Shown: positions 18 to 19,888 of the stretch, in pieces
Layout: every line of letters starts with the position of its first letter
How positions within the stretch are numbered: position 1 is the stretch's first letter
Origin: Endomicrobium sp.
GTDB taxonomy: Bacteria; Elusimicrobiota; Endomicrobiia; Endomicrobiales; Endomicrobiaceae
NCBI GenBank assembly: GCA_031262585.1
Contig: JAISHK010000007.1
Location: 1 to 64,000, forward strand
Direction: 5' to 3'
Length of the DNA stretch: 64,000 nucleotides
Program-made: the position numbers and the translations under genes
The notes under the pieces: generated by a model
Told to the model about the DNA's origin: nothing
What the model saw: the letters and a program-made list of their open reading frames with translations, nothing else
The model's database searches: none

Positions 18-160
18 TTAAATATCTAATACGATATAAGATAATATAATTGACATATAATTATCTAATTATTATATTACGGTATGGTAAAAAGTTATAT
101 TATAATTGTAAAATATCAAATACATATTGTGTAATATCTCACAATGTATTAGATATTTAA
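18..160. repeat. 15-bp inverted repeat flanking a promoter
   Basis: The 15 bases at 18-32 recur as a perfect inverted copy at 146-160, enclosing the promoter at 50-78. The arm reads TTAAATATCTAATAC. Similar DNA to 21-106 occurs again near 28823-28917. The repeat could be an operator pair, a recombination scar or the ends of a small element; the sequence does not decide between these. Confidence 0.5.
50..78 (+). promoter_or_regulatory. sigma-70-like promoter for the lipoprotein gene
   Basis: A perfect -35 (TTGACA, 50-55) is followed by a 17-base spacer and TATATT (73-78). This is the expected layout for the housekeeping sigma factor. The next gene starts at 270, so the transcript would have a leader of about 185 bases containing the hairpin at 194-220. 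Confidence 0.6.
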
Positions 161-193: not shown

Positions 194-220
194 TTGTTGA
201 CAAGAGTTTTGTGTCAACAA
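194..220 (+). promoter_or_regulatory. leader hairpin / operator-like inverted repeat
   Basis: TTGTTGACA (194-202) and TGTCAACAA (212-220) form a perfect 9-bp inverted repeat around a 9-base loop, 50 bases before the start codon at 270. No T-run follows, so it does not look like a terminator. It may be a protein-binding operator or an mRNA-stabilising stem. Confidence 0.45.
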
Positions 221-269: not shown

Positions 270-1994
270 ATGAAGAGAGTGTTAAGTGTGGTGGTATCGT
301 TAAGTTTAATTTTGTGTAGCTGTGGTAAAAGCAATGAGCCAATTATGCAAAGAGAGACAATAGAATTCGAAGAAAGAACTATACTGGTAAGACGGTATGG
401 GAAAGATAACAAACCTCTTGGCAACAACTTTGGCATTAAGGTAAAAGGTATTGTAGGCAAGACTGGAATAAGTCTTGCTTCTCTCAAAAAGTTGGTAACA
501 GAAGACCAATGCAATATAACGAAAGCTTTCTATTATGATAAATATGATAAAATTGGAGTATTTAAAGAAGAGCCGGTGAAAGTGGGAGAAATTGAGAGAA
601 TTAGGCTTATCTGCGATAATGAAAGTCCAAAGCCAATGTTTACGCCAAAGCCAAGTCTCACACCTACCCCGGCGCCTACGGCAACAACAGACCCTGTAGG
701 TAGAGAAATACGGATAAGTTATATTAATGAAAAGCAAGAAGTAATCGAACATATGACTCTTCCGGTAAGAGCAGGTGAAGGTAAGACTATAGTAAATATT
801 AATACTTTCAAGTCGGTAATTCCTAAAGATAAGTGCAATAATATAACAGAAGTTTTCTATATATCGGAAGGCACTCGCAAAGTATTGACTGGTGAAGATG
901 TAACTCTAGACGAGGTAGAGAGTGTTGATCTTGTTTGTTGGAATCAAGAAGCCAGTCCTAGTCACGTTCCTACTCCAACGCCCAGACCCACGCCAACGGC
1001 AAGTCTCGAACCAACTCATGCACCAACAAGAACCACAGAGCCTACCCCAACTCCAGAAAAGAAAAGTAACAAGTATGCATATTTTAAAATTGTTGGTATA
1101 GTTGTCGCTGTTTTCACAGCGTGTATCCTAATAACTTATGTTATAAGAAGGTGTAAAGGTGGGCAAACAAATACCAAAGTCACTAATACTAATGCTAATA
1201 TAAGGTACCCAATTCATACGGTTCAACTTTCTGAAAGAGCTTTACTAGAGATAGGCACTGCAATTTGTGACAACAATTATCCAATACTTATACGTGCGAC
1301 TACTAATTATTATAGAATGCATTCAATTGTCAGCATACCTGAAGAGTTGCGTTATAAGATTTACAATTGTCTAAAAGGCAGACTTCATGCATTAGCGGAA
1401 CTAGACGAATGGAAGAACAATGAAAAAGAGGTATTTAGAACTATGTTGAGAGCGGTGAAAAGACTTGGTCTATACGATAAATTGATGACAGAACAAAGAG
1501 ATTTTTATAATGGTTTAGTTGAAGAAGAGGTTTTTAATTTAGATACTTTAACTGATGATTTTAACGATGTAACAGATGTGACAGAAAAGAGGAGTAAAGA
1601 AGAGGAAGATCAAGGCGAAGGTAAGGAAAAAGAGTCAGCTCAAAAAAAAGAGCTAGCCCCAGCTCAAGAACCAGACCCAGATGTTGCTAAGTTACGAGAT
1701 ATGCTGTCTAGTCCTTCCTGCAATGTGTCAGAGCTTGCAATCTCAACTATCAGACTTGCACGTCAAAATAAATTAAATCTAGTGTCAAGTGATATCCAAA
1801 AGCAATTATATACGACTATTTTTAATCATACAATCGCATTTGGCAATGATACTAAAATTTTTAAGCTGGGTGTGCATGTAATAAATGCTTTAGGTCGGTT
1901 GGGAGCTATACAGAAATTAATAGAAGTACGTTGTGGTCAAATGGGACTAGTCCTTAACACAATTTTAGCAGAAGACGTATTAGACCAACATTAA
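270..1994 (+). CDS. Lipoprotein-like membrane protein with duplicated outer and inner domains
   Basis: No family is recognised for this 574-residue protein. The N-terminus is a signal peptide with a lipobox-like end (Leu-Cys-Ser-Cys18). Two related domains follow, about 34-117 and 145-225. Each carries a Cys pair with the same spacing (C81/C115 and C189/C223, both 34 apart) and a matching 'C-N-(N)-I-T-x-x-F-Y' segment. Pro/Thr-rich stalks lie at 118-143 and 229-263, then a membrane helix at about 271-293 ending in Arg-Arg. The remaining 280 residues are helical. They contain two weakly similar halves (about 355-415 and 505-555, sharing F-x4-A-V/I-x2-LG-x2-x-KL) joined by a Glu/Lys-rich linker at 440-460. 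An AGGAAG site six bases before ATG 270 supports the start. Codon use is more GC-rich than in its neighbours, and the gene is intact in a decaying region. A surface receptor or adhesin facing the host is an inference only. Confidence 0.7.
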   Translation: MKRVLSVVVSLSLILCSCGKSNEPIMQRETIEFEERTILVRRYGKDNKPLGNNFGIKVKGIVGKTGISLASLKKLVTEDQCNITKAFYYDKYDKIGVFKEEPVKVGEIERIRLICDNESPKPMFTPKPSLTPTPAPTATTDPVGREIRISYINEKQEVIEHMTLPVRAGEGKTIVNINTFKSVIPKDKCNNITEVFYISEGTRKVLTGEDVTLDEVESVDLVCWNQEASPSHVPTPTPRPTPTASLEPTHAPTRTTEPTPTPEKKSNKYAYFKIVGIVVAVFTACILITYVIRRCKGGQTNTKVTNTNANIRYPIHTVQLSERALLEIGTAICDNNYPILIRATTNYYRMHSIVSIPEELRYKIYNCLKGRLHALAELDEWKNNEKEVFRTMLRAVKRLGLYDKLMTEQRDFYNGLVEEEVFNLDTLTDDFNDVTDVTEKRSKEEEDQGEGKEKESAQKKELAPAQEPDPDVAKLRDMLSSPSCNVSELAISTIRLARQNKLNLVSSDIQKQLYTTIFNHTIAFGNDTKIFKLGVHVINALGRLGAIQKLIEVRCGQMGLVLNTILAEDVLDQH

Positions 1995-17782: not shown

Positions 17783-19888
17783 ATGCAATCAATTCACAAT
17801 TATTATGGTGAATTAGTTTTCACAAAAAAAGTAATGGAACGAAAATTGAGTAAAAATATTTTCAAGAAGCTTGTTGCTGCTATTGATAATTTAGAGCCCT
17901 TGGATCAATCGATAGCTGGGGAAGTTGCTCATGCGATGAAGGAATGGGCACTTGAAAAAGGTGCTACGCATTTTACGCATTGGTTTCAACCTCAAAGAGG
18001 TGGTACTGCTCAGAAACATGATTCTTTTATAGATTATGGAGAAAGAGGAGAAATAATAGAAAGATTTTCAGCTTTGCAACTTGTTCAATCTGAACCTGAT
18101 GCATCATCTTTTCCATCGGGCGGCATAAGATCAACTTTTGAAGCTAGAGGCTATACAGCGTGGGATCCAACCTCTCCAGTGTTTCTTCTTGAAGCAGGAA
18201 AAACAAAAACATTGGTAATACCTTCTGTTTTTCTCTCTTGGACTGGTGAGGTTTTAGATATAAAAACTCCTCTACTTAGATCTATTGCGATTTTAAATGA
18301 AAAAGCAATAAATCTTCAAAAACTACTCGGCAATAAAAATGCTAAACAGATAAAAATATTCGCGGGTATTGAGCAAGAGTATTTTCTTATTTCGGAAGAA
18401 CTTATAAAATCAAGATCTGATATAATTGTTACAGGGCGTACTTTATTTGGTAGTAAACCTGCAAAAGGTCAGCAAATGGAAGATCACTATTTTGGGAATA
18501 TCCAAAAAAACGTTTTGGAATTTATGGAAGATGTAGATCATGAACTTTATCGCAAAGGTATTCCAATAAAAACGAGGCACAATGAGGTAGCTCCAAATCA
18601 GTTTGAATTAGCGCCTCTTCAACAAGAAATGAATTTAGCTATAGATAATAATTTACAAATAATGGAAATTTTAAAAAGAGTCTCAAATAAGCATAATATG
18701 GTTGCTTTATTGCACGAAAAACCCTTTGCTGGGGTTAACGGTTCGGGTAAGCATTTTAACTGGTCTATAGGCGATAATACTGGAATTAATTATTTTGAAC
18801 CTTCGAAATCTCCTCTTAAAAATGTGTCTTTTCTTTTGGCTATAAGTGCTGTATTGTTCGGCGTAAATAAACTTGGCGGGGTCTTAAGAGCAAGTATTTC
18901 GGATGCAGGGAATGATCACAGACTTGGTGCTAATGAGGCTCCACCAGCAATAATGTCAATTTATTTAGGTGAATATGTGAGTGAACTTTTAGATTCAATA
19001 GAAAAAGCAAGTGTAATCAATGAAAAAAAAGTAAATGAGATAACATTAGGCGTACAGAATCTTCCAAAAGTGAATAAAGATTATTCTGATAGAAATAGAA
19101 CGTCGCCGATTGCATTTACAGGTAATAAATTTGAATTTAGATCATTAGGTTCTGCAGCAAATCCTGCTGAAGCTGGAACTGTGTTAAACATTATTGCCGC
19201 TTATGGATTTGATGAAATATATAAAAGAATTTATAAAAAGAAGAGTAATAGCGACGTGAAAGAGAAGGCTTTAGAAGTTGTAAAAGAAATAATTAAAGAA
19301 ACAAAAGACGTAAGATTTGAAAAAAATGGTTATTCACAAGAATGGTATGTTGAAGCAGAAAGAAGAGGTTTGTCAAATGTAAAAAATACACCAGAGGCTT
19401 TAAAGTTTTTCCTTAAAAAGGATGTAATAGAGATTTTTTCACGTTATCATATATTAACTGAAAGAGAATTAAGATCCAAGGTTGAAATAAAGCTTGAAAA
19501 CTATGTGAAAACCAAGGAAATAGAATATAAATATGCAATAAAGATTGTAAAAACTTTGTTGTTACCAGCGATACTTAAACAAGTAGATTCATTAACAAAG
19601 ATATACAAAAATTTAAATGGGCTTAATATAAAGTCAAAAGAATTATTGAAAGAATTAGAGTTTTTAATGAAGCTTTATGAGGAAATAAAAAGATATTGCG
19701 ATGATTTAGAAGTATTTACCACAATAGAATATAATAATATTTCAAATATTGCTGATAAATTTGCTACTGAAGGCGTAGCAATTCTAGATAAATTAAGAAA
19801 AAAAATTGATATTGCAGAAGATTTAGTTGCAGATGAGTATTGGCCGATGGCAAGTTATCAAGAACTTTTAGTTCCTATTAAAAATTAA
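17783..19888 (+). CDS. glnA: Glutamine synthetase type III
   Basis: This enzyme makes glutamine from glutamate, ammonia and ATP in the cytoplasm. Its length (701) and motifs are those of type III (GSIII/GlnN): 'GIEQEYFLI' near 194, 'TRHNEVAPNQFELAP' near 265-279, 'NGSGKHFNWS' near 319 and 'NRTSPIAFTGNKFEFRS' near 437-453. GSIII enzymes are dodecamers. An AAAGGAGA site precedes ATG 17783. With gltS (56426) importing glutamate, this gives a route to the glutamine used by purine and pyrimidine synthesis. No PII-like gene is adjacent. Confidence 0.96.
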   Translation: MQSIHNYYGELVFTKKVMERKLSKNIFKKLVAAIDNLEPLDQSIAGEVAHAMKEWALEKGATHFTHWFQPQRGGTAQKHDSFIDYGERGEIIERFSALQLVQSEPDASSFPSGGIRSTFEARGYTAWDPTSPVFLLEAGKTKTLVIPSVFLSWTGEVLDIKTPLLRSIAILNEKAINLQKLLGNKNAKQIKIFAGIEQEYFLISEELIKSRSDIIVTGRTLFGSKPAKGQQMEDHYFGNIQKNVLEFMEDVDHELYRKGIPIKTRHNEVAPNQFELAPLQQEMNLAIDNNLQIMEILKRVSNKHNMVALLHEKPFAGVNGSGKHFNWSIGDNTGINYFEPSKSPLKNVSFLLAISAVLFGVNKLGGVLRASISDAGNDHRLGANEAPPAIMSIYLGEYVSELLDSIEKASVINEKKVNEITLGVQNLPKVNKDYSDRNRTSPIAFTGNKFEFRSLGSAANPAEAGTVLNIIAAYGFDEIYKRIYKKKSNSDVKEKALEVVKEIIKETKDVRFEKNGYSQEWYVEAERRGLSNVKNTPEALKFFLKKDVIEIFSRYHILTERELRSKVEIKLENYVKTKEIEYKYAIKIVKTLLLPAILKQVDSLTKIYKNLNGLNIKSKELLKELEFLMKLYEEIKRYCDDLEVFTTIEYNNISNIADKFATEGVAILDKLRKKIDIAEDLVADEYWPMASYQELLVPIKN

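Follow-up and report, generated by a model that had tools for sequence, protein, structure and literature searches.

How does one bacterial protein come to carry both a lipidation signal at its N-terminus and a membrane helix in its middle, and where in the envelope would it lie? This question is raised by a gene at the beginning of a 64,000-nucleotide stretch of DNA from Endomicrobium sp. (GenBank assembly GCA_031262585.1, contig JAISHK010000007.1, positions 1 to 64,000), below called the window. The gene probably encodes a previously undescribed lipoprotein anchored in two membranes. A preliminary description had presented it as a surface protein, possibly for host contact and perhaps one of a family. 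The anatomy given there is borne out: the lipobox-like Cys18 behind a signal peptide, two ectodomain repeats with equally spaced cysteine pairs, two Pro/Thr stalks, a single membrane helix and an undamaged reading frame are all present (Table 1).

Table 1. Features of the candidate dual-anchored lipoprotein gene and of the region upstream of it (positions in the window)
Feature	Position	Strand	Evidence
Sigma-70-like promoter match, TTGACA-17-TATATT	50..78	+	11/12 matches
Inverted repeat in leader, TTGTTGACA...TGTCAACAA, perfect 9 bp	194..220 (arms 194-202/212-220)	+	sequence
Predicted dual-anchored lipoprotein gene, 574 aa	270..1994	+	ORF intact from its ATG, free of internal stops
Signal peptide, aa 1-17, lipobox L15-C16-S17 ahead of Cys18	270..320	+	sequence; LspA present in genome
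Cys18 plus the conserved tag that follows, CGKSNEPIMQRE, aa 18-29 (possible sorting tag)	321..356	+	common to many sister-species genes
Ectodomain repeat 1, aa 34-118, predicted beta-grasp, Cys81-Cys115	369..623	+	AF2 pLDDT 85.4, pTM 0.73; Foldseek
Pro/Thr stalk 1, aa 119-143	624..698	+	sequence
Ectodomain repeat 2, aa 144-226, Cys189-Cys223	699..947	+	homologous with repeat 1 (z 13.2)
Pro/Thr stalk 2, aa 227-266	948..1067	+	sequence
Membrane helix, aa 274-292, then RRCKGG	1089..1145	+	Kyte-Doolittle hydropathy 2.79
Predicted cytoplasmic helical domain C1, aa 322-414	1233..1511	+	AF2, moderate confidence; homology to C-terminus of L037 498-aa relative, z 9.6
Acidic disordered linker, aa 430-466	1557..1667	+	pLDDT <50
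Predicted cytoplasmic helical domain C2, aa 470-567	1677..1970	+	AF2; homology to C-terminus of L037 426-aa relative, z 25.5

The genome (G000) is of 0.94 Mb, AT-rich (the window has 27.8% GC) and diderm. It encodes BamA, as do 37 of the 42 genomes of the genus, and the signal peptidase II LspA (G000:C4:43168-43587, E 6.1e-35), which is also present in nearly all congeners. Together they point to a diderm cell with lipoprotein processing. An ATP/ADP antiporter is encoded in 9 of the 42 congeners. A small AT-rich diderm genome, with an ATP/ADP antiporter in some lineages, is the description of 'Ca. Endomicrobiellum' (PMC11257099), and the source is most likely such an endosymbiont of a termite-gut flagellate. 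A clostridial host was considered, since the single match in the genome collection came from a MAG labelled Oscillospiraceae (see below), but Clostridia and 'Ca. Improbicoccus' were rejected in view of BamA and the long GyrB (829 aa). The window also contains a 701-aa ORF resembling glutamine synthetase type III (17783-19888). Endomicrobiellum is reported to have no GlnA (PMC11257099); the ORF may belong to another class of enzyme, or else the name of the organism deserves a second look. Elsewhere in the assembly, contig C1 carries a fragment similar to Bacteroidota surface proteins and C11 an archaeal DnaG-like gene, both likely contaminants; contig C3 is all N.

The N-terminus of the protein has a basic start, a hydrophobic stretch and a lipobox ending in cysteine (MKRVLSVVVSLSLILCSC). 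The leucine at position -3 of the lipobox is conserved, and the paralogue described below has the canonical lipobox LGAC. Cys18 is predicted to be lipidated; the lipid end may lie in the outer membrane, and the protein may bind a partner.

The preliminary description saw two duplicated domain pairs. Both pairs are indeed homologous. Repeats 1 and 2 of the ectodomain align with score 88, where shuffled sequences average 25.5 (none of 2000 reached it), and in both the cysteines are exactly 34 residues apart. The C-terminal halves C1 and C2 align with score 43 (z 4.4, one of 2000 shuffles equal) and have the same order of helices in the AF2 model; this duplication is real, though distant. What does not stand is a recent internal doubling. 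Repeat 1 is 33% identical to the ectodomains of each of two relatives from locus L037 (proteins of 498 and 426 aa) and only 22% identical to repeat 2. The helical domains, too, are each nearer to a different relative, C1 to the L037 protein of 498 aa (z 9.6) and C2 to that of 426 aa (z 25.5). The pairs are therefore either old duplicates or the outcome of two paralogues having been combined in one protein.

Sequence searches with the window protein in Pfam, NCBIfam and PDB gave no match above curated cut-offs, and thus no known ordinary family; its relatives likewise had no Pfam match above cut-off. Low complexity or scores below cut-off led to the dismissal of a match to amphiphysin and of weak matches in Pfam and NCBIfam (L27, Trypan_PARP, SslE, beta-lactamase). 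The AF2 model of repeat 1, built with six rows from the window and L037, has the order strand-strand-helix-strand-strand-strand. Most of its top 50 Foldseek matches in PDB are beta-grasp domains. The best, at 9-20% identity, are staphylococcal EAP domains (E 5e-4 to 9e-4, TM about 0.6; for 9ass, E 5e-4 and TM 0.60 by query length), and superantigen-like proteins and a PB1 domain are also among them. Thus repeat 1 is predicted to have the beta-grasp (ubiquitin-like) fold, a statement about the fold of this repeat and not about its function. Staphylococcal EAP/MAP proteins, too, consist of repeated secreted beta-grasp modules. However, the identity to these and to the ubiquitin-like and PB1 modules is 9-13%, and the similarity is one of fold alone; nothing points to a shared ancestry or role. 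The helical C-terminal part was modelled with moderate confidence (pLDDT 72, pTM 0.46), and a structure search of this model against PDB gave no significant match.

The guess that the gene belongs to a family proved right. A second copy lies in the same genome directly after recN and is truncated by the contig end; what remains is the leader, one ectodomain, the stalk and the helix. Among 84,980 species genomes scanned, one further locus was found, L037 (JAISIJ010000276.1), in a 3.1-Mb MAG labelled Oscillospiraceae. From the isolate name, this would be a termite-gut MAG; the contig may be mis-binned or exchanged, and could belong to another termite symbiont. It contains four family genes, the first of which has a stop codon shortly after the lipobox. 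A second contig of the same MAG, L072, contains two more. The MAG has at least five members in addition to the two genes of the source genome. The architecture is common to the window protein, its paralogue and the relatives on both contigs. No ectodomain or C-terminal domain of this type was found in the other 41 genomes of the genus; a match to the ectodomain in one of them (G018, E 0.008) came from unrelated short frames with a stop. As the gene is absent from the sister genomes searched, the possibility that they hold only a frameshifted version does not arise. Searches of phage records, plasmid records and viral contigs yielded no relatives.

The relatives are mosaics. In one L072 gene and its twin on L037, 77 of the 83 ectodomain residues are identical (dN 0.031, dS 0.229), only 18 of 30 in the leader, and the whole part past the stalk is different. 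The twin ectodomains are under purifying selection. Since they are kept while the leader and C-terminal parts differ, modules appear to be swapped at the leader/ectodomain and stalk borders. The other L072 gene (L072:1559 onward) has a C2-like end followed by a C1-like domain in another frame, that is, the order C2-C1 and not C1-C2. The ectodomain cysteines are both present in the two window repeats, P0002, P0004, P0005, L072 and the decayed L037 copy, and both absent in P0003 (Tyr/Arg) and its L072 twin. The loss or retention of both together fits a disulfide, and the ectodomains may be stapled in this way.

A much wider set is defined by the leader. A model of its 30 columns was searched in 120 related genomes. 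Strong multiple matches occur only in the source genome (2) and in five sister species: G009 (30), G012 (36), G020 (11), G032 (43) and G061 (20); five other genomes have single marginal matches. The window protein and the paralogue match with E 1.9e-17 and 3.0e-15, both being rows of the model. Because these genomes supplied the model, its specificity is in part built in, which is not true of the occurrence of the same leader before different bodies. Indeed, 53 sampled bodies fall into 38 clusters (blastp at 1e-3). Two of the tagged bodies match the J-domain and one thioredoxin, an unassigned domain bearing an NSCG motif is common to some, and many are rich in Ser and Pro. The loci concerned (L073-L135 in these five sister genomes) thus hold 11 to 43 shared-leader genes per genome with largely unrelated bodies.

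The conserved part extends past the cysteine, with consensus C-[GD]-K-x-N-x-x-[LI]-[VI]-x-R. The form in sister species is C-[DG]-K-K-N-A-x-L-V-N-R-R, and that found here C-G-K-S-N-E-P-[IL]-[VM]-x-R-[ED]. A tag pattern, written after the tags had been seen, fits 38 of 62 tags against a mean of 0.02 for shuffled ones. In G009 the 60 nt following the Cys codon are 81% identical, compared with 55% in the signal peptide, 38% in the upstream region and 41% in the next 100 nt. This conservation has the look expected of a sorting tag, and the segment may be one. Tagged proteins need not span the envelope: 49 of the 55 from sister species, including most of those from G009, G012 and G032, have no membrane helix by hydropathy, so the tag alone does not imply spanning. 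Position +2 is Gly in the window protein, but several sister species have Asp there, a residue that in E. coli favours retention in the inner membrane. Thus the outer-membrane location of the lipid end is uncertain. A conserved tag after the cysteine marks surface lipoproteins in Bacteroidetes (PMC5080379). However, that signal (LES) reads K-(D/E)2 or Q-A-(D/E)2 right after Cys, which is found neither in the tag G-K-S-N-E nor in D-K-K-N-A of the sister species.

The closest precedent for leader sharing is that of the Elp lipoproteins of Borrelia (PMC12018966). In this two-membraned, host-associated bacterium the Erp/Elp proteins, with OspE/F-like leader peptides encoded on cp32 plasmid-prophages, have a common leader and unrelated mature parts, and are lipoproteins of mobile elements (PMC12018966). 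Here, by contrast, the conserved part continues past the cysteine, and the window protein is further equipped with a membrane helix and domains in the cytoplasm; no sequence relation was seen. Phytoplasmas have no outer membrane or cell wall, and their secreted effectors are soluble. In this they differ from the present case, and there is no sequence relation; the likeness is that of a reduced intracellular bacterium with mosaic gene clusters (sequence-variable mosaics) tied to mobile elements (PMC3743221). The main text of the reference study of Endomicrobia genomes does not mention lipoproteins or effectors (PMC11257099).

The preliminary description overstated the case in calling the combination of a lipobox with an internal helix unusual; it is not unique. 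Within the genus such genes form arrays in G024, several with Pro-rich stalks, and occur singly or in pairs in G061, G020 and G065. The combination is also found in CyoA-type oxidase subunits. Phage u-spanins combine a lipobox with a later helix as well (PMC6139136). The unimolecular spanins, such as T1 gp11, have an N-terminal lipobox, a periplasmic part and a later helix, and are thought to span the envelope (PMC6139136). In anchor layout they are the closest precedent. However, the window protein is much longer, and its helix is followed by about 280 residues with large cytoplasmic domains, whereas in u-spanins the helix is C-terminal. It has periplasmic cysteine pairs, while none of 58 u-spanins has a periplasmic cysteine (PMC6139136), and no lysis cassette was seen. 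It shares the anchors and does not qualify as a u-spanin. RcsF resembles it in another way, being a lipoprotein with a disordered Pro-rich region and a disulfide-bearing domain. Its fold is different, however, it lacks a membrane helix, and no sequence similarity between the two is known. RcsF relays across the outer membrane, with its lipidated domain outside and its C-terminus in the periplasm (PMC4942254).

The gene is more GC-rich than its surroundings, as noted before: 37.1% against 27.8% in the window and 30-33% in nine other genes. GC3 is 0.275 in the gene and 0.316 in the paralogue, compared with 0.15-0.22 in the nine others. This composition is foreign to the genome and suggests recent acquisition. 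The upstream signals are less telling than was first thought. The strong promoter is present as a site; however, the region contains 16 sites of this kind, and its shuffled versions 11.2 +/- 4.7, so that a match is commonplace and counts as weak evidence. Similarly, the leader hairpin exists as a perfect inverted repeat, but folding of the leader region barely beats shuffled sequences (z -1.64, 12 of 200 equal) and is not significant.

The window copy now lies upstream of gyrB, beside chromosomal genes. On L037 the family genes adjoin genes for a DnaB-like helicase, Dcm and Vsr, all of which match PHROGs. Chromosomal dnaB aside, the nearest kin of this DnaB-like protein are on small ParA contigs (G035:C53, G032:C62), on the lipobox-gene contig G032:C65 and on the G024 contigs bearing the lipobox/helix arrays. 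A phage origin of L037 was rejected: no structural genes were seen and the DnaB kin accompany ParA, which makes a plasmid preferable. The relatives probably have a plasmid history, which the window copy may have shared. The gene L037:9711-10592 showed no similarity to candidate replication genes of the plasmid-like contigs. In the G024 arrays (L008:4461-9776, L009, L010), small lipobox genes, often with a Pro-rich stalk and a helix, adjoin yidC and DnaB-like plasmid-type genes. In the source genome, a chromosomal dnaB-like gene (G000:C2:61240-62517) has in-frame TAG and TAA codons, consistent with decay. A 4.4-kb contig (L018, G000:C8) encodes an N6/N4 DNA methylase and a protein of possible replication type, and may be a plasmid or phage of the symbiont.

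Computation thus provides the anatomy, family membership, shared leader, two-membrane envelope, predicted folds and the tie of the relatives to plasmid-type replication genes. New to this analysis are the predicted beta-grasp fold of repeat 1, the paralogue and the termite-MAG relatives, the recurring leader and tag, and the two-membrane envelope. The explanation that we favour, with close to an even chance of being right, is a plasmid-spread, shared-leader lipoprotein spanning the envelope, with the lipid outside and the helix in the inner membrane, which links beta-grasp modules in the envelope to helical domains in the cytoplasm. The gene would have been acquired recently, probably from a plasmid. 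Its product would be exported by Sec and lipidated on Cys18, and the conserved tag would direct it to its position there. A partner located in the outer envelope, or at it, would be bound by one or two beta-grasp modules stapled by disulfides, the Pro/Thr rod would cross the periplasm to the single inner-membrane helix, and the two cytoplasmic helical domains would dock a second partner. With the lipid at the outer end and the helix at the inner end, such a protein could act as a trans-envelope tether or receptor.

Other readings place the anchors differently. Possibly, though we consider it doubtful, both are in the inner membrane, with the lipid in the outer leaflet, and the beta-grasp modules and stalk belong to a periplasmic sensor or wall-binding protein signalling to the cytoplasmic helical domains. 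Insertion of lipid and single helix into one membrane is the simplest, the stalk could loop, and Asp at +2 of the tagged sister proteins favours retention by the E. coli rule. However, the window protein itself has Gly at this position, the stalks, at about 40-110 residues, are longer than such a loop would lead one to expect, and no known sensor or wall-binding domain was found in Pfam, NCBIfam or PDB. The opposite arrangement is a host-contact receptor, in which the lipid end is flipped to the surface together with the beta-grasp modules, the stalk threads the outer membrane as RcsF does through porins, and the modules meet the host cytoplasm. It draws on the RcsF precedent of a lipidated domain outside with a periplasmic C-terminus (PMC4942254), on the Bacteroidetes way of marking surface lipoproteins by a post-Cys tag (PMC5080379), and on the large, mosaic, lineage-specific lipoprotein sets that typify host-facing surface proteins, as in Borrelia (PMC12018966). 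On the other hand, an outer membrane is present, as indicated by BamA, and the tag is unlike the Bacteroidetes export signal. In a diderm cell with the helix in the inner membrane, the ectodomains would stay in the periplasm or reach across to the outer membrane; only flipping of the lipid end to the outside would alter this. Because of this, the host-contact reading does not lead and is unlikely, and the surface protein for host contact of the preliminary description is unsupported as stated.

Two further explanations concern the mobile origin rather than the topology. A plasmid-borne envelope function carried with the replication genes, for instance the exclusion of incoming plasmids or phages, would account for the DnaB-like, Dcm and Vsr neighbours of the relatives and for the DnaB kin on small ParA contigs; but no conjugation genes were seen nearby and the window copy adjoins chromosomal genes, and we regard it as very improbable. 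Hardly any weight is given to a selfish remnant, a recent arrival as yet undecayed and having no present function. Decayed relatives do exist, with the stop in the first L037 copy and a frame break in L072, the GC3 is foreign, and none of the 41 other genomes searched in the genus has the gene. However, the ORF is intact in a gene-poor genome, two copies are kept, and the related ectodomain is under purifying selection.

A bolder extension of the favoured trans-envelope lipoprotein, and a long shot, is a new class of trans-envelope receptors. In each genome the tag would send dozens of mosaic proteins to the outer membrane, or across it, along a lipoprotein export route not yet described, and some of them, like the window protein, would continue via the stalk and the inner membrane to the cytoplasm, coupling protist-facing beta-grasp modules to cytoplasmic domains.

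By itself the window gene is a moderately interesting orphan, and the shared-leader set is more notable. Little is known about the dealings of uncultured symbionts with their hosts, the protists of the termite gut. The tagged proteins, up to 43 in one reduced genome and for the most part unrelated apart from the tag, form a short list of candidates for the envelope and the host interface, and their shared tag is a testable sorting signal. Since the set pairs one N-terminal address tag with different bodies, the protein may help to build the envelope of the symbiont or to deal with the host, and the recurring dual-anchored architecture could couple the outer envelope, or the host side, straight to the cytoplasm.
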